64,000 nucleotides of DNA, taken from contig NZ_JALKAO010000004.1 in NCBI RefSeq assembly GCF_023015985.1, positions 1 to 64,000 on the forward strand, in the 5' to 3' direction. How positions within the stretch are numbered: the stretch's first letter is position 1; each line of letters opens with the position of its first letter. Positions 11,209-38,000 of the stretch are shown here, piece after piece. The stretch is from Marivita sp. S6314. Lineage in GTDB: Bacteria > Pseudomonadota > Alphaproteobacteria > Rhodobacterales > Rhodobacteraceae. A program made the position numbers and the translations under genes. The notes beneath the pieces were generated by a model that worked only from the letters and a program-made list of their open reading frames with translations, had not been told where the DNA came from and did not search any database.

Positions 11209-12516
11209 TCAGAGCGATGGCAACCAAAGGGCCAGTTGCGGGAAAACGATCAGCAGTGCGACCAGGAACAGCGAGCAAAAGATGAACGGAAATGCCGAGG
11301 TGTAAATTTCGCGCATCGTGGTGCCTGGGGGCGCCACCCCCTTCATCACGAACAGCAATAATCCGAAGGGTGGGGTGGTGAAGCTGATCTCAAGCGACAA
11401 GAGCATGATAAGCGCAAACCAAATCGGATCGAAACCAAGCGTTTGCGCGAGGGGAAAAAAGATCGGGACAGTCAGGAGCATGATCGAAATCTGTTCCATG
11501 AACATGCCGAGCAGCAACAGGACCGCAAACATCACAAGCAGCATCGCCAAAGGTGCAAGTTCAAAGCTTGTCGCCCAATTCACCAGACCCCGGGACGCGC
11601 CGGAGAAGGCCAGCAGTTGGCTGAACGTCGCCGAGCCGAAAACGATGAGATAGGCCATCAACGTCACCTTGAGCGCGCCGATCACCGACTTCTTCATCGC
11701 GTCCCAGCTCAGACACCGGAAGATCGCGGCCAGGACCAGAACGCCAAGCGCGCCAAAGGCCGCGGCCTCGGATGGTGTGACAAACCCTTTGATCATCAGC
11801 GCGATGATGATGATCATGACGCTGACCATTGGGATCACTTCACGCAGAAGCAGGCCAAGCTTGGACAGAAAGGACATCGGTTCCACGTCATAGGCGGGCG
11901 CGGCTGTCGGGTCGATCTTGGTCTGTATCCAGATTGTGGCGATATAGAACCCCGCAAGGATCAGGCCGGGGATCACGCCCGCAATCAGAAGGGCCGCCAC
12001 GTCGATCTGAGCGAGCGTCGCCAGCAGCACAGCGAGCGCAGAGGGTGGAATGATGATTGCCAGACCACCCGTGCCGAGGATCGGGCCGATGCTCATATGC
12101 GACTTGTAACCCCGGCGGCTCATCTCGGGCACCATCAAGGAGCCGAGCAGCGCAGTGGAGCCCATGGATGAGCCCGAAAGCGTAGAAAAGGCCGTGCCGC
12201 CCAACACCGTGACATAGCTGAGCCGCCCTGGAAGGCGGCCCAAAAGCTTGTCGATGGCGGTAAACATGCGCCCGCCAAGGCCGGTGTGAAAGAAGATTTC
12301 CCCCATCAAAAGGAAGAGCGGAATGGGCATCAGCGCGTATTTGGTGAGCGAACCGAGACCGTTGTTGAGCAGCTGCATCACCCCGCGCTCACCGCCCATG
12401 AAGACCCATGCGCCGATGATATTGGCGGCCAGAAAGGCCAAGGCGATCGGCATTCCGATCGCCATGAGCAGCATGATCGTGCCAATCAGCAGGGCCAGCG
12501 CTTCGAACCATTCCAT
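11209..12516 (-). CDS. dctM: TRAP transporter large permease (DctM type), island 1
   Basis: The 435-residue multi-pass protein is the 12-TM subunit of a TRAP transporter, with the conserved GSSMGSTALLGSLMVPEMSRRGY segment and PPSALAVLLA loop of the DctM family. It moves an organic acid across the inner membrane using the sodium or proton gradient. It is the last gene of the minus arm of the GntR island, and its ATG shares one base with the dctQ stop (TAATG). Substrate not identifiable from sequence. Confidence 0.92.
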   Translation of the reverse strand: MEWFEALALLIGTIMLLMAIGMPIALAFLAANIIGAWVFMGGERGVMQLLNNGLGSLTKYALMPIPLFLLMGEIFFHTGLGGRMFTAIDKLLGRLPGRLSYVTVLGGTAFSTLSGSSMGSTALLGSLMVPEMSRRGYKSHMSIGPILGTGGLAIIIPPSALAVLLATLAQIDVAALLIAGVIPGLILAGFYIATIWIQTKIDPTAAPAYDVEPMSFLSKLGLLLREVIPMVSVMIIIIALMIKGFVTPSEAAAFGALGVLVLAAIFRCLSWDAMKKSVIGALKVTLMAYLIVFGSATFSQLLAFSGASRGLVNWATSFELAPLAMLLVMFAVLLLLGMFMEQISIMLLTVPIFFPLAQTLGFDPIWFALIMLLSLEISFTTPPFGLLLFVMKGVAPPGTTMREIYTSAFPFIFCSLFLVALLIVFPQLALWLPSL

Positions 12517-13016
12517 TATTCGTGTATCCCCGCTTCGCCGCTATGCATCAGGTCTTCGCCAAAGATGAAGCGCGAGAATTCAATCGCCATCATTCCGAAC
12601 GAGAGCGGAAAGGCGATGGTCAGGAGCCAGCGCGGATAATAATAGGCGCGGGTGTCGAAATCGCCCCGCTGCAGGTTGATCATGACAAGCTCGACGCCCT
12701 TCCACGCGAGGATCGCACAGACCAGCACGCAGGCCGTAGCGACGGAGCGGCTGAGAAGGCGGCGCGGTTGCTCGGGCAGGGCAGCGGTGAGCAGTTCGAT
12801 GTGCACATGACCCTTTTCGCGCACCAGCCAGGGCGCACCGAGCATTGTCATGTACAGCAGACCGTATTCAGCCGACGTAAAGAGCCATGCAAAGGGCTGA
12901 AGCCCCAGATTTCGCATCACCACGGACGTGATGACCGACACCATGATCCACACAAGCGTGAGGCCTGATATGCCTGCCATGCCATATAGCAAGGCCTTGT
13001 AGACCGTGTTGATCAT
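12516..13016 (-). CDS. dctQ: TRAP transporter small permease (DctQ type), island 1
   Basis: Small 166-residue membrane protein with four hydrophobic helices, the standard form of a TRAP 4-TM subunit that pairs with DctM. It lies between dctP and dctM. A terminator-like hairpin separates it from dctP, and it overlaps dctM by one base. Confidence 0.88.
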   Translation of the reverse strand: MINTVYKALLYGMAGISGLTLVWIMVSVITSVVMRNLGLQPFAWLFTSAEYGLLYMTMLGAPWLVREKGHVHIELLTAALPEQPRRLLSRSVATACVLVCAILAWKGVELVMINLQRGDFDTRAYYYPRWLLTIAFPLSFGMMAIEFSRFIFGEDLMHSGEAGIHE

Positions 13017-13038
13017 CGCTGATGGCTCCGGAAAAAGG

Positions 13039-13066
13039 CGGGCCTGCCCGTAAGGTAGCAGGCCCG
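13039..13066 (-). terminator. Hairpin with short T-run between dctP and dctQ
   Basis: Nine perfect base pairs (CGGGCCTGC with GCAGGCCCG) enclose a 10-base loop. Read on the coding (minus) strand, the stem is followed by CCTTTTTCC, so it resembles a weak intrinsic terminator. It sits in the gap after the binding-protein gene, where partial termination or mRNA protection would give more DctP than DctQM. Confidence 0.65.
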
Positions 13067-13075
13067 GATGCGGGA

Positions 13076-14089
13076 TTAGTTGGCGGCGTCCAGATCGTAG
13101 AAGAGTTCGATCAGGCGGTCATAGTTGTCGGTGCCACCGGGCTGGCCGGACATGACCTCTTTCATCCGCTCCCAAGTCTTTTCACGGGCGGCGGCAAGGT
13201 AATTTGCCTTGGCCTCACCTTCGAGCGAGACAACCTTCATGCCAGCCGCATCCAGCGCTGCGAAGTCTTCGTCACGCTTGGTACGCAGTGCCGCAACGCT
13301 GTCTTTCTCATGCTGGATGGCCACGTCCTGAACGATCTTCTTTGCCTCGTCCGAGAGCGAGTTCCACTTGTCGTTGTTGACGATCACGCCAAGGTCGGTC
13401 GAGAAAAAGCACGGCTCGATCCGGTAGTTCAGGAACTCGTTCCACTTCAGGTCGATCAGGCCAATCTGCGTCCAGCCTGTTGCATCCACCACACCGCGTT
13501 GCAGCGCGGAATAGACCTCGCCAGTGGGCAGGTCGATCACCTGCGCGCCCAGGTAGTTGGTGAAGAATGCGTTGTAGACGTTGTTGCCGCGCAGCTTGAG
13601 ACCTTCAACCTCAAGGTTGCCGTCGGCATCAAATGTCGGTTCGTTGCGGGTCCAAAGATTGTAGCACACGCCGCTGTCGAACCAGCCGAGGTATTTCAGG
13701 CCCATTTTCTCTTGGTGAATCTGGTCGATCAGGGCGATACCGCCGTTTTCGCGGGTCTCAACGGCGGTGAGGTTGGATGCAACCATGGCGTCCTTTTCGG
13801 GCAGAGCGCCGCCATAGAACGAGCCGGGTGTGTAGACCATGTCCACAATCCCATCGCGCACCGCATCGGGCTGCTGGAACATACCAATGGCCTCGGGGCC
13901 GCCCCGTACATCAATCTGAACCACACCTTTGCCGGCCTCGTTGACCTTGTCGACAAAGCTTAGGAAGCTTTTCGTGTAGATCAGCGTTTCGGGGAATGCA
14001 TGCACCGCCGAGATCGTCTCTTCGGCCTTGAGCGTTCCCGCCACCAGCGTGGCCCCTGCAAGCAGGCTTGCCATAAGTTTCATTTTCAT
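13076..14089 (-). CDS. dctP: TRAP transporter solute-binding protein (DctP type), island 1
   Basis: Periplasmic binding protein of 337 residues that captures the organic acid for the DctQM permease. It begins with a signal peptide (KMKLMASLLAGATLVAGTLKA, cleavage near A-E-E). The ATG at 14089 was chosen because GGAGGA lies just upstream; an in-frame ATG 15 bases earlier would come before this ribosome site. The fold carries the usual NLWTRNEP and LRGNNVYNAF segments. It lies downstream of the leuD-like gene on the same strand, so the transporter and hydro-lyase are probably co-expressed. Confidence 0.9.
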   Translation of the reverse strand: MKMKLMASLLAGATLVAGTLKAEETISAVHAFPETLIYTKSFLSFVDKVNEAGKGVVQIDVRGGPEAIGMFQQPDAVRDGIVDMVYTPGSFYGGALPEKDAMVASNLTAVETRENGGIALIDQIHQEKMGLKYLGWFDSGVCYNLWTRNEPTFDADGNLEVEGLKLRGNNVYNAFFTNYLGAQVIDLPTGEVYSALQRGVVDATGWTQIGLIDLKWNEFLNYRIEPCFFSTDLGVIVNNDKWNSLSDEAKKIVQDVAIQHEKDSVAALRTKRDEDFAALDAAGMKVVSLEGEAKANYLAAAREKTWERMKEVMSGQPGGTDNYDRLIELFYDLDAAN

Positions 14090-14159
14090 CGTGTCGTCCT
14101 CCACTGTTTTGAGGTCTCTGCCTCGTTTGTCTGGCCCACTTTGAGCCGTGGTCGCCGGG

Positions 14160-14786
14160 TCAAACGGCCGTTTTCAATCCGTCTCCGTCAGGCCAGGCCC
14201 AGGATGCGGTTTGACTGCGTTGTTGCTTGAACGCGGCGATGGCCGCGCTGTGATTTTGGGTCAGGTCGATATCGTCCCACCCGTTGATCAGTTTGGTTGC
14301 CCAACTGTCGTCGAGATCGAAACGAACCTGCACGGCACCAATCGTGACGCAGCGGGCGTCGATGTCTATTCTGGCGTCCTGTGGACCTGTCGCGAACGCC
14401 GCTTCCAATGCGGCGTTCGCGGTGTCATCGACCTTGGCCGGTAGAAGCCCATTGTTGACCGCGTTTGCAGCAAAGATGTCGCCGAAGCTGGGAGAGATGA
14501 CCGCACGGATGCCAGCATCCACCAGCGCATAGACGGCCGCCTCGCGCGATGATCCGCTGCCGAAATTGCGGCCGACCAAAAGCACGCTGGCCTCGGGATG
14601 TGCATTGAGTGGGAAATCGTCGCGCAGCGCGCCGGACGCGTCGCGGCGCATGTCATGCAGCAGGTACGGCCCATACCCGTCGGCGCGCGGCACGGACATG
14701 AAGCGCGCAGGGATCAGTTGATCGGTATCGATGTTTGCAACCGGCAACCCGAGCGCTGTGCCTTGATGTACGCGCCAGCCGGGCAT
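14160..14786 (-). CDS. LeuD-type hydro-lyase small subunit
   Basis: The 208-residue swivelling-domain subunit is of the isopropylmalate dehydratase/aconitase superfamily. It contains NIDTDQLIPARF near the N-terminus and the substrate-binding loop NFGSGSSREAA. It pairs with the LeuC-like subunit, whose TGA overlaps this ATG by one base. Family members include 3-isopropylmalate dehydratase, citraconate and maleate hydratases and 2,3-dimethylmalate dehydratase. Because the pair is embedded in a GntR-TRAP operon and not with leuB, a catabolic hydro-lyase is more likely than leucine biosynthesis. The frame stays open upstream, but the true start is the ATG at 14786. Confidence 0.82.
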   Translation of the reverse strand: MPGWRVHQGTALGLPVANIDTDQLIPARFMSVPRADGYGPYLLHDMRRDASGALRDDFPLNAHPEASVLLVGRNFGSGSSREAAVYALVDAGIRAVISPSFGDIFAANAVNNGLLPAKVDDTANAALEAAFATGPQDARIDIDARCVTIGAVQVRFDLDDSWATKLINGWDDIDLTQNHSAAIAAFKQQRSQTASWAWPDGDGLKTAV

Positions 14787-16192
14787 CACGCAGCGCGTCC
14801 TTCGAGCAGCGGACGCACATCGGTGAGCGTGCCGGTCACGGCGGCGGCGGCAACCATGGCTGGGCTCATCAAATGGGTGCGTGCGCCGCGCCCCTGACGG
14901 CCTTTGAAATTGCGGTTGGTGGACGACGCGCACCGTTTGCCATCGCGCACCAGATCGCCATTCATCCCCACGCACATGGAGCATCCTGACGCGACCCATT
15001 CAAGGCCTGCGTCGATGAAAACACGGTCGAGTCCCTCGGCCTCGGCTTGCGCTTTGACCTGTGCAGAGCCGGGAGAAATCAGCCCCGGCACCTTGGCTTT
15101 GCGGCCGCGCAGAACCGTTGCCGCCGCGCGCATATCTTCGATCCGGCCGTTCGTACAGGAGCCGATGAAAACCTGATCAACTGGCGTGCCGTCGAGCATG
15201 TCGCCAGCCTTCAATCCCATGTATTCCAGCGCCGCGCGGGCGGCCTCGGCCTTTTCGGGTGGGACCTCGGAAGGGTCAGGGATCGGTGCGCTGATCGGCA
15301 GCGCCTGTTCCGGGCTTGTGCCCCATGTCACCGTCGGGGAAATCTCGGACGCGTCGAAGGTCACTTCGCGGTCAAAAACCGCGCCTGCGTCGCTTGCAAG
15401 CGACGTCCAATCGGCGCAAGCGGTCTGCCAGTTTTGTCCTTTGGGCGCAAAGCGACGCCCTTCCAGATAGGCAAAGGTTGTGTCGTCCGGTGCCACCATT
15501 CCAAACCGTGCGCCGCCTTCTATCGACAGGTTGCACAGTGTCATACGACCTTCCATTGAAAGGCCCGTGATGGCGCTGCCCGCATATTCCACCGCATGAC
15601 CCTGTGCACCGCCGGTGCCCAGTTTGGCGATCCAGCCAAGGGCAATATCTTTCGCCGTCACCCCTGCGCCAAGCGTGCCGTTCACCGTGATGCGCATTGA
15701 TTTCGGTTTGCGCTGCCAGACGGTTTGCGTGGCAAGCACATGCGCCACTTCCGTCGCGCCGATGCCGAAAGCCAGTGCTCCAAAGGCACCATGCGTCGAG
15801 GTGTGACTGTCGCCGCAGTTGATGAGAAGACCGGGCAGCGTCAGGCCTTCTTCGGGGCCGACAACATGCACGATGCCCTGGTGTGGATCGTCCAGATCAT
15901 AGAGCCGCAGCCCATGCGCGGCGCTATTGCTGCGCAACGTTTCGATCATGCGGGCAATCTGCGGATCGGCGATTTTTGAGCGATCCCTTGTGGGCGCATA
16001 GTGATCAACAACCGCAAAGGTGAGCGATGGTTCGGCCACGGACAGGCCACGCTCCGCGATCTTGGCAAACGCGTGGTGTGACCCTTCGTGCACCAGATGT
16101 CGGTCGACCCATAGCAGGGACACACCATCATCGCGCTGCAGCACCTCATGGGCGGCCCAAAGTTTGTCGAGAAGGGTTTGCGGCGTCGCCAT
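14786..16192 (-). CDS. LeuC-type hydro-lyase large subunit (4Fe-4S)
   Basis: The 468-residue large subunit has the [4Fe-4S] ligands C346 (in IGSCTNGR), C404 and C407 (in GCSMCVGMN), almost at the positions of E. coli LeuC. Substrate-handling segments HTSTHGAFGALAFGIGATEV and SIEGGARFGMVAPD are present. Together with the small subunit it adds or removes water on a 2- or 3-substituted malate/maleate. The ATG at 16192 shares one base with the gntR stop (TAATG), which ties it to the regulator. The specific substrate cannot be read from sequence. Context favours a catabolic role, such as hydration of an alkylmaleate. Confidence 0.85.
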   Translation of the reverse strand: MATPQTLLDKLWAAHEVLQRDDGVSLLWVDRHLVHEGSHHAFAKIAERGLSVAEPSLTFAVVDHYAPTRDRSKIADPQIARMIETLRSNSAAHGLRLYDLDDPHQGIVHVVGPEEGLTLPGLLINCGDSHTSTHGAFGALAFGIGATEVAHVLATQTVWQRKPKSMRITVNGTLGAGVTAKDIALGWIAKLGTGGAQGHAVEYAGSAITGLSMEGRMTLCNLSIEGGARFGMVAPDDTTFAYLEGRRFAPKGQNWQTACADWTSLASDAGAVFDREVTFDASEISPTVTWGTSPEQALPISAPIPDPSEVPPEKAEAARAALEYMGLKAGDMLDGTPVDQVFIGSCTNGRIEDMRAAATVLRGRKAKVPGLISPGSAQVKAQAEAEGLDRVFIDAGLEWVASGCSMCVGMNGDLVRDGKRCASSTNRNFKGRQGRGARTHLMSPAMVAAAAVTGTLTDVRPLLEGRAA

Positions 16193-16992
16193 TACCCCTC
16201 TCCCTCGCTCTGGCCAATCGCAGGCTCCCAATGACGCGCCGCGCCCTGGCCGACACGCGTCAGCGGCATTTCCAGCCGGAACATATCAGGACGGTACAGC
16301 CCCGACAGATATTCAACCCCGTTACCGTCAACATCGCGCACGACACGGCGCAGCGACAGTAAGGCGGACCCGACCGCCACGTTCAGCGCTTCCGCCACAT
16401 CGGGCCCAGCGAGCGTGGCACTCACCGATTGATGCGCCTCCTTGATCTGGACGCCGCTGCGCTCAAGCAGTGTGAAAAGCGGTTTGGTCGCGAGATCGTT
16501 TTCGGAATAATTCTGGGCAATTTGCGCCGGAACATAGGTCGTCAGGTGAGAGAAGGGGATGTCGTCCGCCAAACGCACCCGCGTGGCGATCTGGACCTTG
16601 CTCTTGCTGTCGAAACCCATGGCGGTGGCCACGAAATCGGGCGCCGTGTCATAGGAAAACGACAACAGCCGCGCTGTGGTCTGCTGGCCCATCTCAACAA
16701 GCTGCGGCATCAAGGTGTTGAAATCCATTGCCGCGCGTTGACCGCTGGCGACCCGTGCGCGGACCTTGGTGCCGCTGCCTGCGCGCCGTTCGATCATCCC
16801 GCCTTGGGCCAGTGCATCCAGTGCGCGGCGCACGGTGACGCGGCTGACCCCGAAGGTTTCGGCAAGCTTCTGTTCGCCTGGCAGGCTTTCACCGTCGCGC
16901 AGGTCGCCGCCGGTGATCTGATCACGCAGCGACAGGTAAACATGCCGCGCCTTGACCCCGTCCGGCAGTATCTGAACAGCCTCCGCCCGCAC
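16192..16992 (-). CDS. GntR-family regulator (HutC subfamily), island 1
   Basis: The 266-residue repressor-type protein has a GntR winged helix (about residues 10-75, with ETFGVSRVTVRRALDALAQGG) followed by a UTRA/HutC effector domain. The GTG start at 16992 is preceded by GGAGGAA; the frame is open further upstream but has no ribosome site there. It is the first gene of the minus arm and faces the tautomerase-hyuBA operon, so it likely autoregulates and controls both arms. The perfect inverted repeat at 17098-17115 is its probable operator. HutC-family proteins usually bind a pathway substrate or intermediate. Confidence 0.87.
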   Translation of the reverse strand: MRAEAVQILPDGVKARHVYLSLRDQITGGDLRDGESLPGEQKLAETFGVSRVTVRRALDALAQGGMIERRAGSGTKVRARVASGQRAAMDFNTLMPQLVEMGQQTTARLLSFSYDTAPDFVATAMGFDSKSKVQIATRVRLADDIPFSHLTTYVPAQIAQNYSENDLATKPLFTLLERSGVQIKEAHQSVSATLAGPDVAEALNVAVGSALLSLRRVVRDVDGNGVEYLSGLYRPDMFRLEMPLTRVGQGAARHWEPAIGQSEGEG

Positions 16993-17097
16993 CGCGATTC
17001 CTCCATATTTCTGAGTCGGAGGGTAAATGCGTTCTTTCCAAAAGCAAGGATTAGTATTCTGAATGTGCCGAAAAATTCTTTGGAATGATGCAATATA

Positions 17098-17115
17098 TGT
17101 ATTACAAATAATACA
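17098..17115. promoter_or_regulatory. Probable GntR operator between the two arms of the island
   Basis: TGTATTA-N4-TAATACA is a perfect 7-bp inverted repeat 22 bases upstream of the tautomerase start and about 105 bases upstream of gntR. Short AT-flanked palindromes of this kind are typical of GntR/HutC operators. As the only strong palindrome in the divergent region, it could control both arms. Confidence 0.6.
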
Positions 17116-17136
17116 GATTGTGGGAGGGAGATGGTC

Positions 17137-17703
17137 ATGCCAATCGTCGAGTTGCACGTTCTTGAAGGCTATAATGCGCAAGAAAAACAAAGGCTTGGTG
17201 CGGCGTTGACCGATGCAGTGCGATTCGTGGTTCCAGCCGCGCCCGAGTTGGTCGCGGTGATGATCCGCGATATGCCGATTGCCGATTATTACCGCGGGGG
17301 CACGCCGCGCAGCCCCGCGCCGGCGCGCCCCGATCCTGTTCAGATCGTCAAGGACTATCTTGCTGCGATGGAGGCGCGCGATCTGGAGCAGGCGCGCGCT
17401 TTGCTGGGCGACGGCTTTACCATGACTTTTCCTGGAACCGCGCCGATGTACAGGCTGGAAGAGCTGATCGAATGGTCAAAACCGCGCTACAAATTCGTCA
17501 CGAAAACCTATGACGGCTTTGACGCGATGCAGGGCGCGGGCGAAGCCGCCATCGTCTATTGCCGCGGCACGTTGCAAGGCGAATACCACGACAGTCAGCG
17601 CTTTGACGGCATCCGCTTTGTCGACCGGTTCGAGATCACGGGGTGCAAAATCAGCAGGCAAGACGTCTGGAACGACATGGCCGAAGTGAGGGCAAACGTA
17701 TGA
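17137..17703 (+). CDS. Tautomerase (4-oxalocrotonate tautomerase-like) fused to a SnoaL/NTF2-like domain
   Basis: The 188-residue protein appears to be a fusion. Residues 1-60 (MPIVELHVLEGYNAQEKQ...) look like a 4-OT tautomerase, with proline directly after the initiator methionine as the predicted catalytic Pro1. Residues about 70-188 (VKDYLAAMEARDLEQARALL...) look like a SnoaL/NTF2 alpha-beta cone fold. The ATG at 17137 was preferred over that at 17131 because it gives Pro1 and better spacing from GGGAGGG. It is the first gene of the plus arm, and its stop overlaps the hyuB ATG by 4 bases. Probably isomerises an enol or dienol intermediate; substrate unknown. Confidence 0.7.
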   Translation: MPIVELHVLEGYNAQEKQRLGAALTDAVRFVVPAAPELVAVMIRDMPIADYYRGGTPRSPAPARPDPVQIVKDYLAAMEARDLEQARALLGDGFTMTFPGTAPMYRLEELIEWSKPRYKFVTKTYDGFDAMQGAGEAAIVYCRGTLQGEYHDSQRFDGIRFVDRFEITGCKISRQDVWNDMAEVRANV

Positions 17704-19394
17704 GTGAGATTGACCCCATTACCCTGTCGGTCCTCGCAGGCCGGATGGAGCAGATTGCCGATGAAATGGACGCGACATTGTTCCGTGCGGCCTTTAACCC
17801 GATCATCGCCGAAGCGCATGACGCAAGCCACGGGCTCTATCATGCGGTGTCGGGCGATACGCTGGTGCAGGGAAAATCGGGACTACCCATTTTCGTGGGT
17901 GTGATGTCTTTCGCGGTAAAAGCCGTGATTGAAAAAGCCGCCCGGGACGGTGACCTGGAAGACGGCGACATCTACATTTTCAATGATGCGCATATCGGCG
18001 GCACGCACCTGTCTGACATGCGCCTCGTGCGGCCCTATTTCCGCGATGGAACGTTGTTTTGCTATCTCGCTTCGGTCGGACACTGGCATGACGTGGGCGG
18101 CGCTGTGCCCGGCAACTATAATCCTGCGGCGACAGATGTGTTTCAGGAAGCGTTCAACCTGCCGCCTGTAAAACTTGCCCGAAAGGGCGAGATCAATCAG
18201 GACATTATCGACATCCTCCTTCGTAACACCCGTTTGCCACAATCGGCGATGGGGGATCTGAACGGCCAGCTTGGGGCGTTGGATCTGGGCGTCAAACGGA
18301 TGGACGAATTGCTGGATGAATATGGCGCCGACACGATCACCGCCGCGCTTGAGGCGCTCGGTCACCGGGCTGAAGCGTTGATGCGATCTGAACTCACCGA
18401 TCTGCCCGATGGCCGGTGGGAAGCGACGGATTATCTGGACAATGACGGGATCATTGACGCGCCGCTGAAGATCCAGATTGCGCTTGAGATCAAAGGCGAT
18501 GAGATGACGCTTGATTTCACGGGGTCGTCGCCGCAATGCGCAGGCCCCGTGAACATCGCATTGCCAACGACTGTGGCAACGGCCTATGTCGCGATCAAGC
18601 ACGTCTTTCCGGCGCTGCCCGCAAATGCAGGCGTGATGCGCCCGATCAATGTGATCGTCCCCGAAGGAAGCCTGCTTGCCGCGCAATTTCCAGCGCCGAC
18701 GGGCGGTTATACTGAAACCATTCTGCGGATGATCGATGTGGTCTTTTCGGCGTTTGCGCAGGCTGCGCCCGACCGCGTTGTCGCCAATGCTTATGGCACG
18801 ATTAACGCGCTCTCGATTGCGGGGACGAAAAAGAACGGGCAGCCATGGGTGATGTTTTCTTTCTATGGCGGGGGGCATGGCGGCTCGATCGAAACGGACG
18901 GGCTGAACCACGGCAATGCGCCCATTTCCACTGCGACAATCCCGCCGATGGAGATTCTGGAAGCCGCATATCCGGTGATGTTCCGCACATGGGCGTTGCG
19001 CCCGGATAGCGCCGGAGCGGGCGCGCATCGCGGCGGACTTGGTGCGATCTACGAGATCGAAGTGCTGGAGGAAAACGGTGCTGAGGCCTTCCTTTTTGGC
19101 GAGCGCGGGCGATTTGCGCCTAAAGGCATTGCAGGCGGCGGCGAGGCGGCCATGAACGTGTTCCAATATGAGCAGGATGACGGCTGGCACAGCCCGCAAC
19201 TGGCCTCGAAAATGCGCGGCATCAAACTCAAGGCGGGACAGGCTGTGCGTCTCGAAACGCCGGGAGGCGGCGGATATGGCGCGGCGGCTGAACGCAGCGT
19301 GGATGCCGTGGCCCTCGACGTGGCGCGCGGTCTGGTGAGCGAAGCCGAGGCGGACGCGATCTACGGCACCAAATGGCGGGAGGGCACGGCATGA
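17700..19394 (+). CDS. Hydantoinase B/oxoprolinase-family subunit (HyuB)
   Basis: The 564-residue subunit is of the HyuB family, recognised by MEQIADEMDATLFRAAFNPIIAE near the N-terminus, NDAHIGGTHLSDM, VGHWHDVGG and a C-terminal ETPGGGGYG motif. HyuA/HyuB enzymes use ATP to open cyclic amides (N-methylhydantoin, 5-oxoproline, caprolactam); relatives carboxylate ketones. The ATG at 17700 overlaps the upstream stop as ATGA, and the end overlaps hyuA the same way, so the arm is tightly coupled. The substrate is not predictable from sequence. Confidence 0.88.
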   Translation: MSEIDPITLSVLAGRMEQIADEMDATLFRAAFNPIIAEAHDASHGLYHAVSGDTLVQGKSGLPIFVGVMSFAVKAVIEKAARDGDLEDGDIYIFNDAHIGGTHLSDMRLVRPYFRDGTLFCYLASVGHWHDVGGAVPGNYNPAATDVFQEAFNLPPVKLARKGEINQDIIDILLRNTRLPQSAMGDLNGQLGALDLGVKRMDELLDEYGADTITAALEALGHRAEALMRSELTDLPDGRWEATDYLDNDGIIDAPLKIQIALEIKGDEMTLDFTGSSPQCAGPVNIALPTTVATAYVAIKHVFPALPANAGVMRPINVIVPEGSLLAAQFPAPTGGYTETILRMIDVVFSAFAQAAPDRVVANAYGTINALSIAGTKKNGQPWVMFSFYGGGHGGSIETDGLNHGNAPISTATIPPMEILEAAYPVMFRTWALRPDSAGAGAHRGGLGAIYEIEVLEENGAEAFLFGERGRFAPKGIAGGGEAAMNVFQYEQDDGWHSPQLASKMRGIKLKAGQAVRLETPGGGGYGAAAERSVDAVALDVARGLVSEAEADAIYGTKWREGTA

Positions 19395-21454
19395 GCAGCC
19401 GTATGATCGGTGTCGATGTTGGCGGCACCTTTACCGATGTCTTCGTTTTGAACGAGGCCGAGGGCACCGCCAGCGTTGCCAAGGTGCCGACGACGCGTCC
19501 CGACCAATCGAGCGGTTTTCTTGACGGGATTGGCTGCGAGGTGCAGGACCTGTCGGAAATCGCGGTCGTCGTGCATGGCACGACAGCCGGCACCAACGCC
19601 TTGTTGGAACGCAAGGGCGCAACGACGGGCGTGATCTGCACCGAAGGGTTGCGCGACGTGCTGGAGATGCGCCGACGCGATCGGCCGCGCACCTGGGGCC
19701 TGCGCGGAGATTTCGAACCGGTGGTGGACCGCCGCAACCGTCTCGAAGTGCCCGAGCGCACATTGGCCGATGGCACGATCCGCACGCCTGTGGATATTGA
19801 TGCCGTTCGCATGGCCGCCAAGACGTTGCAGGATCAGGGGTGCGAAGCCGTCGCAATCCTCTTTGCCAATTCCTATGCCAACACGGCCAACGAAGACGCC
19901 GCTGTCGCCGCGCTTCGCAAGGTCTGGCACAATGAGCACGTCTCGGCCTCGTCCGAGATTCTGCCCGAGATCCGTGAATTCGAACGCTTTTCGACCACTG
20001 CGCTGAACGCCTATTTACAGCCCGAAGTGTCTGGCTATCTGGGGCGGCTGGAAAACGCGCTCAAAGCAGGTGGGTTTGATGGCGAGTTTATGATCGTGCA
20101 ATCAAATGGGGGCGTGATGGCGGTCGACACCGCCTGCCGTTTGCCCGTGCGCACCGCGCTTTCCGGTCCTGCTGCCGGTGTCATTGCGGCGGGGTATATC
20201 GCGCAATCGTCGGGGTTTGAAAACATCATCACCGGCGATATGGGCGGAACAAGTTTTGACGTGTCCTTGATTGCCGAGGGGCAGTCGATGCTGTCGCCGC
20301 AGACGTCGATTGATTTCGGAATGGTCGTGCGCAACCCGATGATCGAAATCACCACAATTGGCGCTGGCGGTGGGTCCATTGCGTGGGTCGACAAGGGTGG
20401 GCTGCTCAATATCGGTCCGGAAAGTGCGGGCAGCAATCCGGGGCCGGTTGCCTACGGGCTTGGCAATACGCGTCCAACCGTGACGGACGCCAATGTCGTG
20501 CTGGGCCGGATTGATCCGGACAACCCAATCGGCGGCAAACTTGACCGGCTGGATCTGACCGCTGCAGGCCGCGCAATTGACGAGCATGTGGGCGCGCCAC
20601 TGGGACTTAGCACTGTCGAGGCTGCAGAGGCGATCCTCAGGGTCGCCAACAGCCGCATGGCCGGGGCGATCCGACTTGTCAGTATCGAACGCGGTTTTGA
20701 TCCCAAACGTTTTGCCTTTATGCCCTTTGGCGGCGGCGGCGCGCTTCATACCGGTGCTATGCTGGCCGAAGTGGGGATCGCGCGCGCCATTGTCCCGCGT
20801 TATCCTGGGGTCACCTCGGCGATGGGCTGTGTGATTGCCGATATGCGGCAGGATTTCGTGCAAACCATCAACTCGCTCGTCGACACGCTGGATGAGACGG
20901 CGTTGGGGACATTCATGCAAGCGCATGCCGATCAGGGCATGGCGCTTCTTGATGCCGCGCGCACCAAATTCGAAGCGCGTGAGCTGAGTTTTGAACTCGA
21001 CATGGCCTATATCGGGCAGACGCATACTGTTTCTGTGCCAGTGAGCGTGAAGACGTTGGACGGTAAGGTGACCGCCCCCACACGGGCCGAGATCGAAGAG
21101 GCGTTTGACACCGCCTATCGCGCCACCTTTGGCAGGCTTCTGCAGAACGGTGTGCGGCGCATTTTGAACCTGCGCAGCGCCGTGACCGGCAAACGCCCCA
21201 AATTCGACCTGAGTGCTCTGGCTCCAACCGAGGGCGGCTCACGCGACCCTATCGGCCAAAGACAGGTACATTTCGCTGATACATGGCATGACACGGCGAT
21301 TTATGACCGGCTTTCTTTGCCGGTGGGTGCTGTCATCAAAGGCCCCGCGATCCTGACACAGCCCGACACGACCGTTCTGATCGAGCCGCATTTGCGGGGC
21401 CGGGTCGACCCGTTCGGCAACACCATTATCGAAACCTCGGAGGATGTATCATGA
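19391..21454 (+). CDS. Hydantoinase A/oxoprolinase-family ATPase subunit (HyuA)
   Basis: The 687-residue subunit has an ASKHA-type nucleotide-binding N-terminus (GVDVGGTFTDVFVLNE), the VVVHGTTAGTNALLERKGA segment, TALSGPAAGVIAAGYIA and GDMGGTSFDVSLI, all hallmarks of HyuA. It forms the ATP-hydrolysing half of the HyuAB enzyme, which phosphorylates the ring carbonyl of a cyclic amide. It overlaps hyuB and the following hydrolase gene by ATGA. A C-terminal beta-rich domain follows, as in the family. Length is typical. Confidence 0.9.
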   Translation: MSSRMIGVDVGGTFTDVFVLNEAEGTASVAKVPTTRPDQSSGFLDGIGCEVQDLSEIAVVVHGTTAGTNALLERKGATTGVICTEGLRDVLEMRRRDRPRTWGLRGDFEPVVDRRNRLEVPERTLADGTIRTPVDIDAVRMAAKTLQDQGCEAVAILFANSYANTANEDAAVAALRKVWHNEHVSASSEILPEIREFERFSTTALNAYLQPEVSGYLGRLENALKAGGFDGEFMIVQSNGGVMAVDTACRLPVRTALSGPAAGVIAAGYIAQSSGFENIITGDMGGTSFDVSLIAEGQSMLSPQTSIDFGMVVRNPMIEITTIGAGGGSIAWVDKGGLLNIGPESAGSNPGPVAYGLGNTRPTVTDANVVLGRIDPDNPIGGKLDRLDLTAAGRAIDEHVGAPLGLSTVEAAEAILRVANSRMAGAIRLVSIERGFDPKRFAFMPFGGGGALHTGAMLAEVGIARAIVPRYPGVTSAMGCVIADMRQDFVQTINSLVDTLDETALGTFMQAHADQGMALLDAARTKFEARELSFELDMAYIGQTHTVSVPVSVKTLDGKVTAPTRAEIEEAFDTAYRATFGRLLQNGVRRILNLRSAVTGKRPKFDLSALAPTEGGSRDPIGQRQVHFADTWHDTAIYDRLSLPVGAVIKGPAILTQPDTTVLIEPHLRGRVDPFGNTIIETSEDVS

Positions 21455-22071
21455 GCAAGCCGGGCAAGTGGGATATCGCGCGCACGGCGCTTTTGACGAT
21501 TGATCTGCAAAACGATTTTATCCATCCGGACGGCGCGTATGGGCGCGCGGGCCAAGGCGCGGACAGCATCCTTGCCTTGCCGGATCGCATCGCCCCGCTG
21601 GCACGGGCCATTCAGGCCAAGGGCGGGCGTTATTTCTCGGCCCAGTTCACACTGGTGCCGGACAAGGACGGCGAACCGCTTATCGCGCCGCATCTGAAAG
21701 AACTGCGCCCGTTTCTTGGCAAAGGTGACTTCGCGCCCGGCAGCTTTGGGCACACGCTTGTGGATACGCTGCAGCCGGCGGATTTCGTGATTGAAAAGGT
21801 TGTCTATTCGGCCTTCTACCAGACTCGGCTGGAATACCTGATGCGCGCCGTCGGCATAGATCATCTGATCGTCGGCGGCATCGTGACCAACGGCGGTGTC
21901 GCCTCTACCTTGCGGGACGCGCATCTGCGCAACATCGAAACGGTCATGCTCACAGACGGTTGCGCGGCCTTCAAACAGGACGTGCATGACGCCACGCTCT
22001 TGTCATTGGGCACGATCACCCACCAGATGACCTGCGCCGAGGCGTTGGCTTTGATCAAGGGTGCATCATGA
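21451..22071 (+). CDS. Isochorismatase-fold hydrolase lacking the catalytic cysteine
   Basis: The 206-residue isochorismatase-superfamily protein has D18 (TIDLQNDF) and K116 (IEKVVYSAF) in their usual catalytic places. Where cysteine hydrolases have TN-x-C-V, this protein reads TNGGV, so G149 replaces the nucleophile. True isochorismatases of the PhzD type also have glycine here and act without a covalent cysteine. It may therefore hydrolyse a vinyl ether, or bind without amidase activity, and the common label of amidase is doubtful. It sits between hyuA and the lyase gene, with 4-base overlaps on both sides. Confidence 0.82.
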   Translation: MSKPGKWDIARTALLTIDLQNDFIHPDGAYGRAGQGADSILALPDRIAPLARAIQAKGGRYFSAQFTLVPDKDGEPLIAPHLKELRPFLGKGDFAPGSFGHTLVDTLQPADFVIEKVVYSAFYQTRLEYLMRAVGIDHLIVGGIVTNGGVASTLRDAHLRNIETVMLTDGCAAFKQDVHDATLLSLGTITHQMTCAEALALIKGAS

Positions 22072-22934
22072 GCTTGCGCGCGCGCCTACAGCAAAAAGAG
22101 ATCGTCATCGCCCCCGGTGTCTATGACGGGCTGACCGCCTCTCTGGCCGAAACGGCCGGGTTTCAGGCGCTGTATCTCAGCGGTGCAGCCGTCGCCTATA
22201 CGCGGCTCGGGCGCCCCGATATCGGCCTGACCACCGCGTCCGAGATGGCGGATACCATGACGTTGATTGCGGATCGCACGATGCTGCCTGTGATCATCGA
22301 CGCCGATACGGGCTTTGGCAACGCGCTCAACGCGCAGCGCACCATGCGTCTTTACGAGCGTGCAGGCGCGTCAGCCTTGCAGATGGAAGACCAGACCTAC
22401 CCCAAGCGCTGCGGGCACCTGGCGGACAAATCTCTGATCAGCGCTTCCGAAATGGTGGGCAAAATCGCGGCGATGGCCGATGCCCGCGCCTCGGATCAGA
22501 CGCTCATCATCGCGCGGACTGATGCGATTGCCGTCGAAGGGTTTTCAGCCGCCGAGGATCGCGCCGAGGCGTATCTTGAGGCGGGTGCGGATGTGCTCTT
22601 TGTCGAAGCCCCCCAGAATCGCGACCAGCTTGAAACAATCACCAAACGTTTTGCCGGACGTGTTCCGCTTCTGGCCAATATGGTGGAAGGCGGTGCCACG
22701 CCAGTCACTGGCGCGGATGATCTTGAAGGCCTCGGCTTTTCCATCGTCATTTTCCCCGGTGGCATCGTCCGCGCTTTGGCCCGCACTGCGCAGGATTATT
22801 ACCAAAGCCTTGCCCAGCACGGGTCAAACAAGCCCTTCGCTGACAGGATGTTCGATTTTGCGGGGCTCAACGGCATTATGGGAACCGAAGAGATGCTGAA
22901 AAAAGGGGCACGCTATGACGGTTCCGACAGTTGA
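22068..22934 (+). CDS. Isocitrate lyase/PEP mutase-family lyase (2,3-dimethylmalate or methylisocitrate lyase-like), island 1
   Basis: The 288-residue TIM-barrel protein has the catalytic loop KRCGH at residues 113-117, the Mg-binding DADTGFGN (D78, D80) and MEDQ (E107). The KxCGH loop cysteine marks C-C lyases of the family (isocitrate, methylisocitrate, dimethylmalate lyases) rather than phosphonate mutases. It would cleave a substituted malate to a 2-oxoacid and a short carboxylate. Together with the LeuCD-type hydro-lyase of the other arm it mirrors the dehydratase-lyase pair ending anaerobic nicotinate breakdown in Eubacterium barkeri. It overlaps the next gene by 20 bases. Confidence 0.85.
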   Translation: MSLRARLQQKEIVIAPGVYDGLTASLAETAGFQALYLSGAAVAYTRLGRPDIGLTTASEMADTMTLIADRTMLPVIIDADTGFGNALNAQRTMRLYERAGASALQMEDQTYPKRCGHLADKSLISASEMVGKIAAMADARASDQTLIIARTDAIAVEGFSAAEDRAEAYLEAGADVLFVEAPQNRDQLETITKRFAGRVPLLANMVEGGATPVTGADDLEGLGFSIVIFPGGIVRALARTAQDYYQSLAQHGSNKPFADRMFDFAGLNGIMGTEEMLKKGARYDGSDS

Positions 22935-24291
22935 GCGGCCGCCCGAGCGGTTCGATCTCTCAGTCGAAACCCTGATTGTCGGCGCCGGTGCCTGCGGGCT
23001 GATTGCCGCTTTGTCGGCGCAGGAAGCCGGGCAAAAGGTCTTGGTGATTGAGGCCGATGCCGTGCCCTCCGGCTCCACCGCTTTGTCGGCGGGATTGATC
23101 CCTGCGGCGGGAACCAGGCTGCAGCACGCGGCGGGCATAAAGGACAATCCCGCCCACTTTGCCGCCGATATTCAAACAAAGGCGCATGGCGAGAACGATC
23201 AGGCTTTGGTGGACCTTTTGGCACAGAATTCGGCCCCGGTGATCGACTGGCTGGTCGAGGTGCACGGTTTGCCGTTCTCGGTAGTGGATGATTTCGACTA
23301 TCCCGGTCATTCGGCCCGCCGGATGCACGGGCTTCCGACACGTTCAGGTGCAGAGCTTATCGACGCGCTGCGCAGCGCCGCTGAGCGGGCCGGGATCGAC
23401 ATCATCTGTGAACGCCGTGCAGAGACGCTTTTCTTTGAGGACGGGGGTGTCCACGGCATTGCCGTTCGACGCCCCGATGGAGGTGTGGAAACCATAAGGT
23501 GCCGTCGCCTGATCCTTGCCTGCAACGGCTATGGCGGCAACCGCGAACTGGTGGCGCGCCATATGCCCGAGATCGAAGATGGGCTTTGGTTCGGCCATGA
23601 TGGCAATCGCGGGGAGGCGGTGCAGTGGGCCGAACAGATCGGTGCAGCAACCGACCATCTTGGCGCTTACCAAGGTCATGGCAACGTGGCCCACCCGCAT
23701 GGCATCCTCATAACCTGGGCCACGATCACCGAAGGCGGGGTGCAAGTGAACCGGCAGGGCAAACGGTTCTGGAACGAGGCACAAGGCTATTCGGAGGCGG
23801 CGCGTGCGGTGCTGTCGCAACCGGGCGGCGAAGCTTTTGCCGTCTTCGATGCGCGCATCGCCGACATCGCCCGGCAATTCGAGGACTTCAAACGCGCCGA
23901 AGCCCAAGGTGCGATCAAGACGGCGACCACCCTGAACGACCTCGCGCTTGCGCTTGGACTGCCAGCGGACAAGTTCAAAAGGACCATCGCCGAGATCCCC
24001 AACCCTGGCAGAGATGACTTTGGCCGTGAGTTCGGCGCAACACGCCTTGCACCGCCATTTTGCGGCGTGCGGGTGACCGGTGCGCTTTTTCATACGCAAG
24101 GCGGTCTGAGAGTGGATGATATCGCACGGGTCGTCACGCGCGACGGCACGCCGATTGCAAATCTCTTCGCCGGTGGCGGCGCAGCCTGCGGTGTGTCGGG
24201 CCGCAAGGATAGCGGCTATCTGTCGGGAAACGGCTTGCTGGCCGCCGCTGTTTTGGGCCGGATCGCCGGAAAAGCCGCGTCCGTTGGGTGA
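22915..24291 (+). CDS. FAD-dependent oxidoreductase of the fumarate reductase/3-ketosteroid dehydrogenase type
   Basis: The 458-residue flavoprotein has an N-terminal dinucleotide motif (LIVGAGACGLIAAL, then VLVIEAD) and a C-terminal FAD contact (NLFAGGGAACGVSG...GYLSGNGLLAAAVLGRIAG). This is the FAD-binding-2 family, which includes fumarate reductases, tricarballylate dehydrogenase and ketosteroid dehydrogenases that insert or remove a C=C double bond next to a carbonyl. In the island it could dehydrogenate a saturated acid to the maleate-type substrate of the hydro-lyase. No signal peptide, so cytosolic. Last gene of the plus arm. Confidence 0.83.
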   Translation: MTVPTVERPPERFDLSVETLIVGAGACGLIAALSAQEAGQKVLVIEADAVPSGSTALSAGLIPAAGTRLQHAAGIKDNPAHFAADIQTKAHGENDQALVDLLAQNSAPVIDWLVEVHGLPFSVVDDFDYPGHSARRMHGLPTRSGAELIDALRSAAERAGIDIICERRAETLFFEDGGVHGIAVRRPDGGVETIRCRRLILACNGYGGNRELVARHMPEIEDGLWFGHDGNRGEAVQWAEQIGAATDHLGAYQGHGNVAHPHGILITWATITEGGVQVNRQGKRFWNEAQGYSEAARAVLSQPGGEAFAVFDARIADIARQFEDFKRAEAQGAIKTATTLNDLALALGLPADKFKRTIAEIPNPGRDDFGREFGATRLAPPFCGVRVTGALFHTQGGLRVDDIARVVTRDGTPIANLFAGGGAACGVSGRKDSGYLSGNGLLAAAVLGRIAGKAASVG

Positions 24292-24513: not shown

Positions 24514-25899
24514 CTAATGCGCTTGGTGGTGCACCGTCTGACGCCACACGGCCGCATAGTCTTGAAGCAGACGTTCGTCTTCTGCCCTGACCGTAATCGG
24601 ATGATCGGTGATCGGGCGGGCCTTTGTTTCGCCCAAAGCCAGCATCGCGGCACCTGAACTGGTTCCTGTTGTTCCCGATGACCGAAATACATCTGCGGCC
24701 ATCGCGACGCTTAACATTTGAAGGTAAAGGTGATTGCCGGCAAAGGGACCTTCTACGATGATGTGCCCGTCGTGGCCGATATTGGACAAGCATTCGGCCG
24801 TCACAAGAGCAAGGTAGAGGGCCACTGCGGCGCCGCGACGCCCTGTTCCCGTGTCCGGTTCTTCCCCGACCCAAGCGGAAACGCGTCCCTTGAACGGTCC
24901 GCTGTCCGGTGCAAGCGCGGGCAAAAGCATGACCCGGTTTGATAGCACAAAGTGCAGGTCTTCAGCAGTTGGCTCCGCAGAGATGCCGCCCGTGGCCAGA
25001 TCGTGTTCGCGCCCGCCCATGAAACGCGCGGACGGGGCAGGTTGCCCGAAGGCGGTGACATTGATCAAAGTATCCAGATGTGGATCAAGCTCAACCGGCT
25101 TTCCGCCAACGGACATTGCGATGACCCATGTTCCTGTCGAAATGACGCTGAAAGGCGGGTTTTCTGCCTGAACATAGGGCAGGAGGGATGCATTGGAATC
25201 GTGAATGCCACAATAGACGGGCGTTTCTGGCGGCAGGCCGGTGCGTTCGGCAACCAGAGGCAATAGAGGCCCGAGGACGTCGTGCGGCTTGCGAACAGCG
25301 GCGAGTTTTTCCGCAATTCCCAATCTTTCGACCAATGAGGAAAAGCGCCCGTCAGACGGAATCCACAGGTCTGTGTGGCATCCCAGAGATGTGACATCCG
25401 TGGCCATCACGCCCGTAAGCCGTGCGCCCCAGTATTGCGGGTAGGTGACAATCTGGGCGGTTCGCTCCTTGAGCGAAGCATCGCATTGAAATTGCCAGAA
25501 CAGTTGCGCGCCGATATTCAACCCGCCAGCAAGACGCGGCGATCCGGTTTCAGCAAACGGAGGGCGCATTTCGCTATATGCATCAAAGGCCTCATCAGGA
25601 CCGGAATGTTCGTAATCGAGGATCGGTGCCGCCAGCCCACCTTGCGCATCCAAAAGCGCAGCGCAGGCCCCATGGGTTGTGATCGAGATTGCGTCGATCC
25701 CGTGCTGTACGTGAAAATCGCATAGGCCGTCCAGTAGGAATTCCCAATGCCCCTCTACATCGAAATGCGGATAGGGCGGGCCCGGTAGAACCGTGTTGGG
25801 GCGTGTGATTACGGAAATCTCGGACAGGGACTGGCCGTCGACCAAGGCAAGTTTCGCATTGGTCTTTCCGATATCTATGACGGCGACGTGACGCGTCAT
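24514..25899 (-). CDS. rhaK: L-rhamnulokinase, FGGY family
   Basis: The 461-residue FGGY carbohydrate kinase has [17 protein letters not shown] at the N-terminus and [13 protein letters not shown] in the second domain. It phosphorylates rhamnulose before aldolase cleavage. The gene order rhaR-S-T-P-Q-U-K matches the Rhizobium leguminosarum rhamnose locus, where the kinase is also needed for transport. It is the last gene of the operon, with a 4-base overlap with rhaU. It lacks the N-terminal form of enteric RhaB, as expected for this alternative family. Confidence 0.88.
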
Positions 25900-26210
25900 G
25901 GCATGTGAAACACGGTTTCAAGCGGTTTGACCACCGGTTCGTTGCTCGGATGAGTCTGCATGATGTCGGCCATGTGCGCCCACCATTTCTGCATCACCGG
26001 ATGATCGGGCAATGCGTCCATCCCGTGCCCGTCCCCGCGCCATAAAACGGCAAAAAGGATTTCGGTGTCTTCGTCCAGATGGATCGAATAGTCCGAGACG
26101 CCCGCCTGTTTCAGGAGCGTCACAAGCTCCGGCCAGATCTCGTCATGGCGCTTGATGTACTCCGCCCGGCAGCCGGGATTAAGATGCATCTTAAAAGCGT
26201 ATTTCTCCAT
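25896..26210 (-). CDS. rhaU: L-rhamnose mutarotase
   Basis: Small 104-residue RhaM/RhaU-family enzyme that interconverts the alpha and beta anomers of L-rhamnose. Tyr18 and His22, the residues used for catalysis in E. coli RhaM, are at the same positions, and the WW pair near residue 75-76 is present. The ATG at 26210 was chosen because it overlaps the rhaQ stop (TAATG) and gives the family N-terminus [10 protein letters not shown]. The end overlaps rhaK by 4 bases. Confidence 0.93.
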
Positions 26211-28176: not shown

Positions 28177-28186
28177 GCGTGCGTCC

Positions 28187-29719: not shown

Positions 29720-29747
29720 GACTCGCCTCGATGTGAAGGGGGACATG

Positions 29748-29776
29748 CCCCGGCGCAGCGATGGGCCGCGCCGGGG
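29748..29776 (-). other. Strong hairpin between rhaS and rhaT
   Basis: CCCCGGCGC pairs perfectly with GCGCCGGGG around an 11-base loop in the gap between the binding-protein gene and the ATPase gene. No T-run follows on the coding strand, so it is more likely an mRNA-stabilising or partial-stop structure than a full terminator. It would favour RhaS over RhaT, P and Q. Confidence 0.6.
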
Positions 29777-29790
29777 ACAGGGTCGTGTGT

Positions 29791-30792: not shown

Positions 30793-30831
30793 TGGTTTCC
30801 TCCCTAAAGTACGTTCGCGAATTGGCCCCGC

Positions 30832-31632: not shown

Positions 31633-31676
31633 TGTCGTCCTCCCGTGTCGTCTAAGCTGTCCAGATTCGGATCACC

Positions 31677-31749
31677 TGTCAATCAAAAACAATCAAAACT
31701 GATCATACTGCGGTGCAGCATGACTAATTATGATTGATAATGATTGACA
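31677..31749. promoter_or_regulatory. Large symmetric dyad, probable RhaR operator and divergent rha promoter region
   Basis: The outer arms TGTCAATCA (31677-31685) and TGATTGACA (31741-31749) are perfect complements. Each is accompanied 10 bases inward by a second CAATCA (31690-31695) or TGATTG (31731-31736). The centre holds CTGC-GGT-GCAG (31708-31718), and all pairs share the same midpoint, base 31713. Paired half-sites one helical turn apart fit binding of two DeoR dimers on one DNA face, possibly with looping, to shut both rhaR-rhaS and rhaD-rhaI. Confidence 0.75.
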
Positions 31750-31818
31750 AAGCGACACGCTCCAATCAGCCTGATGCGGAAACATTTGGTCGGCGGAGAG
31801 CGCCAATCGGGAGGAAAC

Positions 31819-33921: not shown

Positions 33922-33930
33922 GGGCACATC

Positions 33931-37476: not shown

Positions 37477-37482
37477 TTGGGA

Positions 37483-37995: not shown

Positions 37996-38000
37996 TGCGG

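Follow-up and report, generated by a model that had tools for sequence, protein, structure and literature searches.

A conserved twelve-gene island of Marivita sp. S6314 and its predicted route to glutarate

Introduction

Which compound is broken down by a bacterium that encodes, side by side, a hydantoinase-type ring opener, an amidase-fold protein lacking its nucleophilic cysteine, a LeuCD-type hydro-lyase, and a C-C lyase? The question is raised by an island at positions 11209-24291 of the window analyzed here, a stretch of 64,000 nucleotides (nt) corresponding to positions 1-64000 of contig C34 of Marivita sp. S6314, whose genome comprises 3.77 Mb in 39 contigs. Open reading frame (ORF) calling and family profile searches identified twelve genes in two divergent arms, encoding DctM, DctQ, DctP, LeuD-like, LeuC-like, and GntR/UTRA proteins on the minus strand, and a tautomerase/SnoaL fusion, HyuB, HyuA, an isochorismatase-fold protein, a PEP_mutase/ICL lyase, and an FAD_binding_2 flavoprotein on the plus strand. 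This gene content, already listed in a sequence-only reading of the window, was confirmed by the searches.

The island proved to be genuine, a widespread catabolic module that assembles known enzyme families in a new combination. No description of its gene cluster was found in the open-access literature, whose broad topics were covered only in small part. The gene families, their conservation, their linkage to glutarate genes in several lineages, and the loss of the cysteine are direct observations. We propose, with what we regard as an even chance of being right, a GntR-regulated pathway in which a cyclic imide or lactam would be opened, deamidated, hydrated, and cleaved to a 2-oxo acid and glutarate. 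This narrows a conserved catabolic route that lacks an assigned substrate to a few candidate compounds and a single predicted pair of products.

Linkage to genes of glutarate degradation

ORF clustering over 126 loci located an acyl-CoA dehydrogenase gene and a class III CoA-transferase gene behind the flavoprotein gene. At nine loci from eight genomes, the dehydrogenase gene either slightly overlapped the flavoprotein match or lay within about 60 nt behind it, and the CoA-transferase gene came next in seven rows (six genomes); the contig ends in L092 and L129. In a quickly built HyuB tree with 104 rows, seven of them carrying the linked dehydrogenase, the fewest changes required were four. 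The six closest solved relatives of this dehydrogenase that are named glutaryl-CoA dehydrogenase scored 550-581 bits. For the linked CoA-transferase, the top PDB match was 4ed9, a CaiB/BaiF protein without a stated role (503 bits), followed by 9br6, a succinate--hydroxymethylglutarate CoA-transferase (309 bits). Because genes for both a glutaryl-CoA dehydrogenase and a CoA-transferase of the glutarate type accompany the island in several lineages, the short acid released by the pathway is most likely glutarate, which is the main new point of this work. Three similar-looking cases were removed from the count: the downstream acyl-CoA dehydrogenase of L139, which fell into the same cluster at only 26% identity, and the class III CoA-transferases of L106 and L167 (35-36% identical).

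The known lyases of this family convert a malate-type acid to a 2-oxo acid and the acid that bore the neighbouring carboxylate. If the released acid is glutarate, the lyase substrate would be a 2-hydroxy-2-R-3-(carboxyethyl)succinate and the LeuCD substrate a 2-R-3-(carboxyethyl)maleate. The specificity loop of LeuD bears on this additional carboxylate. In the second of two LeuD types, K, R, or H stood in the loop in 32 of the 34 rows that fitted the pattern, four further rows not fitting. At this position homoaconitase presumably has Arg and isopropylmalate isomerase Val, and a basic residue would then suit an additional carboxylate; no open-access paper on the homoaconitase loop residue was found. 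Taken together, the glutarate-gene linkage and the basic loop residue suggest cleavage to glutarate plus pyruvate or glyoxylate.

Several results weigh against glutarate as the product. The top PDB chain of the linked dehydrogenase, 4w9u (699 bits), is named only acyl-CoA dehydrogenase, and on the glutaryl-CoA dehydrogenase model NF045552 (cut-off 470) the proteins of L163 and L092 scored 211.5 bits (fourth) and 229.1 bits (second), behind FadE. The best match of the linked CoA-transferase, the succinate-glutarate CoA-transferase model NF052585, reached 539.6 bits, below its cut-off of 750. Glutarate genes adjoin the island in a minority of cases (9 of 126 loci), and in the window's genome a dehydrogenase/CoA-transferase pair, 94% and 77% identical, lies away from the island at C22. 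The linked dehydrogenase was the sole match in five of the eight genomes, with a second copy elsewhere in the other three (E 1e-100); where it is the single copy, it may serve lysine breakdown too. Finally, the LeuD of the window is of the first type; of its 58 rows, 46 had Ser and 9 had Lys after FM, so the clue from the basic residue is not directly transferable to the window.

If R were hydrogen, LeuCD would act as a homoaconitase and the lyase as a homoisocitrate lyase releasing glyoxylate and glutarate. We consider this quite unlikely. Homoaconitase is the best solved relative of the island LeuC, and both the basic residue of the second LeuD type and the glutarate-gene linkage would fit, but the lyase is closest in sequence to the PrpB side of its family rather than to isocitrate lyase (the fold was compared too), and homoaconitate is not known to have an abundant cyclic amide.

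Conservation of the island

Of 295 genomes from the family, 53 had a match to the tautomerase/SnoaL protein (E 1e-8), many of the weaker matches coming without the island. At the 30 best loci, the window included, hyuB was adjacent in every case, leuC was also present in 29, and gntR in 27. Forty regions of up to 20 kb around these matches, weak ones included, were then compared: 28 contained type-1 leuC together with hyuB, 27 of them with gntR, and all twelve genes were present in 22, while 12 regions (L057, L058, L061-L067, and L070-L072) had no leuC-hyuB pair. The association of these genes exceeds chance, and the two arms, which had been read as a single unit, are conserved together across relatives.

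A wide scan of named genomes with an isochorismatase-fold alignment returned at least 236 relatives, the best 80 of which are hereafter called the named loci; counts over them refer to genes within the fetched stretch of each locus. They include loci of Stappia, Azospirillum, Methylobacterium, Bradyrhizobium, Nitratireductor, Hoeflea, Sulfitobacter, and Marivita, all of which are Alphaproteobacteria; others are labelled simply 'Proteobacteria'. Among evenly drawn genomes, with the window's genome counted, the isochorismatase-fold protein was found at E 1e-40 in 19 of the 289 drawn from the class and at E 1e-30 in 8 of the 398 drawn from the phylum, one of these 8 belonging to another class. 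The three genes hyuB, hyuA, and that of the isochorismatase-fold protein are shared in this order, with the lyase gene before or after them. Many Alphaproteobacteria thus share a core made up of HyuBA, the cysteine-less protein, LeuCD, and the PrpB-like lyase, to which the flavoprotein is often added and which follows TRAP or LIV-type ABC importers, and the gene set is conserved in many soil and marine bacteria.

LeuCD of either type was encoded at 57 of the 80 named loci. At the other 23, leuC was out of range; a check of 13 of their genomes found in every one a LeuC 64-70% identical to that of the window, and by coordinates some of these genes may lie only a few kb beyond the fetched stretch. 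An MmgE/PrpD gene occurred at 19 named loci, nine of them without leuC in range. MmgE/PrpD was considered as a substitute for LeuCD and rejected: eight of these nine loci were checked (not L166), and a LeuC of 64-70% identity was present in all eight genomes, so MmgE was more likely added than a replacement of LeuCD. LIV-type ABC importer genes were found at 36 named loci, a DctP-like gene at 17, both at 2, and neither in the fetched stretch at 29, indicating that the arm for the TRAP (tripartite ATP-independent periplasmic) importer is not universal. The solved relatives of the ABC solute-binding protein of L162 pointed to no ligand. The flavoprotein gene was present at 66 named loci, and the dehydrogenation is probably a side entry for that reason rather than part of the core.

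Asp/Glu/hydantoin racemase-family genes were seen at 10 of the 80 named loci. At L103, L109, and L159, two adjacent genes of this family (the family being read on L092) follow the core, and at L109 and L159 the pair occupies the place of the missing flavoprotein gene. At L068 (615-10136) and L069 (10037-19801), the SnoaL domain occurs without the tautomerase and no island-type flavoprotein gene was seen; the island there adjoins a second TRAP importer, a methyltransferase, an FMN oxidoreductase, a GMC oxidoreductase, an SDR, and CMD-like proteins, which may represent a different oxidative route leading to the same core.

Gene order and regulation

The features of the island are listed in Table 1. 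Nearly every junction had been described as overlapping by 1 to 20 bases, and eight of the ten indeed overlap by that much, the lengths being taken from ORF coordinates with start codons that we picked. In the left arm, gntR/leuC, leuC/leuD, and dctQ/dctM overlap by 1 nt each; in the right arm, the overlaps are 4 nt (tautomerase gene/hyuB), 7 nt (hyuB/hyuA), 4 nt (hyuA/isochorismatase-fold gene), 4 nt (isochorismatase-fold gene/lyase gene), and 20 nt (lyase gene/flavoprotein gene). Gaps of 70 and 59 nt separate leuD from dctP and dctP from dctQ, respectively. The divergent arms stand as first described, except that gntR is not a separate gene facing two operons but opens the left arm itself.

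Table 1. Genes and candidate operator of the island, in window coordinates
Feature	Position	Strand	Match or remark
dctM, TRAP large membrane subunit	11209..12516	-	PF06808, E 1.7e-75
dctQ, TRAP small membrane subunit	12516..13016	-	PF04290, E 3.3e-23
dctP, TRAP solute-binding protein	13076..14089	-	PF03480; best solved relative 4mnc, E 1.6e-48
LeuD-type small hydro-lyase subunit	14160..14786	-	PF00694
LeuC-type large hydro-lyase subunit	14786..16192	-	PF00330, E 5.1e-159
GntR/UTRA regulator, first gene of left arm	16192..17004	-	PF00392 + PF07702; start codon uncertain
Candidate operator, inverted repeat ATATGTATTA-N4-TAATACAGAT	17095..17118	.	10-nt arms around 4 nt, between the gene arms
Pro1 tautomerase fused to SnoaL-like domain	17137..17703	+	PF01361, PF12680, PF14534 above cut-off
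hyuB	17700..19394	+	PF02538, E 2e-170; nearest solved N-methylhydantoinase 7hk5, hydantoinase 6yra
hyuA	19388..21454	+	PF01968, PF05378, PF19278; best NCBIfam match caprolactamase alpha, below cut-off
Isochorismatase-fold protein, Cys -> Gly, candidate Cys-less amidase	21451..22071	+	PF00857
PEP mutase/isocitrate lyase family C-C lyase	22068..22934	+	PF13714, 149 bits; KRCGH at lyase residues 113-117
FAD_binding_2 flavoprotein, candidate dehydrogenase	22915..24291	+	PF00890

The intergenic region between gntR and the tautomerase gene measures 132 bp if gntR starts at 17004, a start that is assumed and uncertain. TGTATTA-type repeats resembling the candidate operator were found in a few of the 45 intergenic regions scanned, the window included, most being without one. 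The best NCBIfam match of the regulator was HutC, at 122 bits, below the cut-off of 220. The ligand of 4mnc, the closest solved relative of DctP, is presumably benzoylformate.

Ring opening and deamidation

Both HyuA and HyuB carry the Pfam domains of the hydantoinase/oxoprolinase superfamily, and, like caprolactamase and N-methylhydantoinase, which belong to the same families, both subunits are full length. The island proteins differ from caprolactamase in their operon and in scoring well under the CapAB equivalog cut-offs of NCBIfam (498 bits for alpha and 323 bits for beta, against 1000 bits each). Acetone and acetophenone carboxylases are also among the HyuA/B relatives, which allows a reading in which the substrate is saturated or non-nitrogenous: the flavoprotein would turn an alkylsuccinate into an alkylmaleate, and HyuAB and the isochorismatase-fold protein would act otherwise, for example in an ATP-dependent carboxylation. 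TRAP importers, which usually carry acids, would fit as well. We hold this reading to be improbable, since the carboxylase models score under the caprolactamase models (137 versus 323 bits for HyuB and 318 versus 498 bits for HyuA) and 14 of the 80 named loci have no flavoprotein gene.

The isochorismatase-fold protein had been described as cysteine-less, and this holds. Gly149 aligns with the Cys of triuret hydrolase, and TNGG occupied the nucleophile position in all 116 related genes read, which makes this an amidase-fold protein without its nucleophile in every relative at hand. D18 and K116 were invariant in 27 of 27 aligned sequences; we take them to be the Asp and Lys of the cysteine-amidase catalytic site. 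Compared with the cysteine amidases NicF, RutB, and BiuH, the island protein thus keeps Asp and Lys and has Gly in place of the nucleophilic Cys, and the folds most similar to its predicted one are those of biuret hydrolase, RutB, and related amidases. The catabolism of cyclic imides by an imidase plus an amidase, HxnM/HxnN of Aspergillus nidulans, is described in PMC9304392. Opening of an imide ring followed by release of the amide as ammonia would be common to HxnM/HxnN, the maleamate amidase NicF, and the island, which differs in having an ATP-dependent ring opener of the HyuAB type, an amidase-fold protein without Cys, and a hydratase and C-C lyase thereafter.

The ring might also be another one, pyridine- or lactam-derived (e.g., a reduced nicotinate-type lactam), in which case HyuAB would open an enamide lactam and the cysteine-less protein would hydrolyze the enamine by acid catalysis, as isochorismatases act on an enol ether. 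EntB/PhzD-type isochorismatases are likewise not known to carry the Cys. This alternative, unlikely in our judgement, gains from L106 and L151, where a relative of the isochorismatase-fold protein is accompanied by LeuCD and by FAD hydroxylase-type and arylmalonate decarboxylase-like proteins. In PMC9304392, a 'polyketide cyclase' is said to open 2,3,6-trihydroxypyridine in Rhodococcus and Arthrobacter, and a tie to the SnoaL domain would be our own suggestion.

At L106 (7994-16273) and L151 (5866-10588), where relatives of the cysteine-less protein adjoin LeuCD, the fetched stretch showed no HyuAB; the families were read directly on L151 and assigned on L106 by clustering. These loci are possibly a different pathway that shares the same hydratase.

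For the tautomerase/SnoaL fusion, the start codon was followed by Pro in 42 of the 49 relatives with an N-terminus. Its solved relative, the fused tautomerase of PDB 9mua/9mup (186 amino acids), aligns over almost the entire length of the island protein (9mua, E 1.1e-61); this relative is represented by a structure entry, no open-access paper on its function was found, and tblastn found no relative in viral contigs. In the flavoprotein, Tyr stands at the position of the fumarate reductase Arg in 95 of 97 relatives, with two unread. The replaced residue is presumably the catalytic Arg of flavocytochrome c fumarate reductase, from which the island protein differs in this respect. Directly behind the flavoprotein gene, L040 (17040-18167) and L042 (16957-18099) carry a gene whose product resembles, by eye, a HisC-type aminotransferase and lies outside the model.

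Hydration and cleavage

The genome encodes three aconitase-family genes: leuC at C35, one in a 989-amino-acid frame at C11, probably aconitase, and the island pair. The island LeuC is 55% identical to the LeuC at C35, and both subunits pass their models (627 bits on TIGR00170, cut-off 560; 135 bits on TIGR00171, cut-off 116), but membership of the LeuC/LeuD family leaves the substrate unfixed. The loop DTDQLIPARFMSVPR of the island LeuD differs from the loop DTDMIIPKQFLKTIKR of the canonical LeuD of the same genome. In the lyase, the catalytic Cys motif KRCGH was unchanged in 22 of 22 aligned sequences, and the score on the PrpB model TIGR02317 was 296.7 bits, short of the cut-off of 354.4.

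These LeuCD and PrpB-like sequences might be taken for a relocated leucine or methylcitrate-cycle module, which we regard as highly improbable. The island LeuCD is not the only one of the genome, since canonical leuC and leuD, with leuB downstream (recognized by eye), are located at C35; leucine biosynthesis is ruled out by this separate set. The methylcitrate cycle is ruled out by the score of the lyase and by the absence of PrpF, no PF04303 match being found in the window's genome. The PrpB model matched twice in this genome, both times inside the window and below the cut-off, and the one MmgE/PrpD gene lies at C11, away from the island. Like the methylcitrate cycle (PrpB, PrpD, AcnD/PrpF), the island would form a malate-type acid by hydration and use a PrpB-like lyase, and MmgE/PrpD lies nearby at the named loci mentioned above, but no citrate synthase-type gene is among its twelve.

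Another precedent is the nicotinate fermentation of Eubacterium barkeri, which reportedly employs dimethylmaleate hydratase and 2,3-dimethylmalate lyase. Like the tail of that pathway, the island would hydrate a dialkylmaleate with a LeuCD-type enzyme and then cleave the product with a lyase of the PEP mutase family. The island differs in adding HyuAB and the cysteine-less amidase-fold protein, and in its product, apparently glutarate and not propionate. Methylitaconate isomerase, which we take to be a PrpF family member, belongs to the nicotinate tail and has no counterpart in the window's genome.

Proposed pathway and candidate substrate

The reactions, regulation, and substrate given here are predicted, functions being assigned by homology. 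The GntR/UTRA regulator would control both divergent arms. The TRAP importer would take up an acid that either is itself a cyclic imide (or lactam) bearing a propionate side chain or is converted to one, and HyuAB would open the ring with ATP. The isochorismatase-fold protein would then remove the second amide as ammonia, probably assisted by the neighbouring cis-carboxylate of the maleamate, in which case a Cys nucleophile would be unnecessary. The product, a 2-alkyl-3-(carboxyethyl)maleate, would be hydrated by LeuCD to the malate and cleaved by the lyase to a 2-oxo acid and glutarate, the former being pyruvate if the alkyl group is methyl and glyoxylate if it is hydrogen. Glutarate would enter metabolism through the CoA-transferase and then glutaryl-CoA dehydrogenase. 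Saturated substrates may enter optionally through the flavoprotein, and the tautomerase/SnoaL protein may act as an isomerase where double bonds are misplaced.

The order proposed in the sequence-only reading, namely ATP-driven opening of a cyclic amide, an alkylmaleate, hydration, and cleavage by the lyase, remains the best fit. Three parts of it have changed: the short acid is now most likely glutarate, dehydrogenation is probably a side entry, and TRAP uptake is not universal. The model explains the flavoprotein, the racemase, MmgE/PrpD, and the tautomerase/SnoaL protein incompletely, and the loci missing the flavoprotein gene tell against it as well.

Our leading candidate for the substrate, a tentative one, is hematinic acid, a maleimide that carries methyl and propionate substituents and arises in the breakdown of chlorophyll and heme. 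Its carbon skeleton fits, since opening, deamidation, hydration, and cleavage would yield pyruvate and glutarate. According to PMC7318184, hematinic acid was formed from chlorophyll a in vitro and is present in leaves, in which simple maleimides were not detectable, and older reports cited there describe it from senescent leaves and lake sediments. Two points speak against this compound. Heme oxygenase was encoded in only 5 of 20 island genomes, counted irrespective of its distance from the island, which gives no sign of a tetrapyrrole link, and the sequence itself names no compound. If hematinic acid is the substrate, the fate of a chlorophyll decay product would be explained; chlorophyll turnover is put at 10^12 kg a year in PMC7318184.

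More broadly, the island might be the route by which bacteria use the monopyrroles left at the end of chlorophyll, heme, and bilin breakdown, taking hematinic acid as well as its reduced or ethylidene relatives, the latter via the flavoprotein, the racemase, and the tautomerase/SnoaL protein, and proceeding by an ATP-dependent imidase, deamidation by an amidase whose Cys was lost because the carboxylate of the substrate makes the attack, hydration, and cleavage to pyruvate and glutarate. This wider proposal is slightly more doubtful still; if it is true, tetrapyrrole decay in soil and sea would have a closed carbon and nitrogen balance.

Neighbouring clusters in the window

Two further clusters lie in the window. 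A second protein of the PEP mutase/isocitrate lyase family and a TRAP importer of its own are encoded at 35318-36223 and 36202-39047, forming a separate small catabolic cluster; this protein scored 252 bits on the PrpB model, below the cut-off. Adjoining the island at 24514-35169 are genes for an FGGY kinase, a sugar ABC importer (permeases recognized by eye), a DeoR regulator, an aldolase/dehydrogenase fusion, and RhaA, which together look like an L-rhamnose catabolic cluster.

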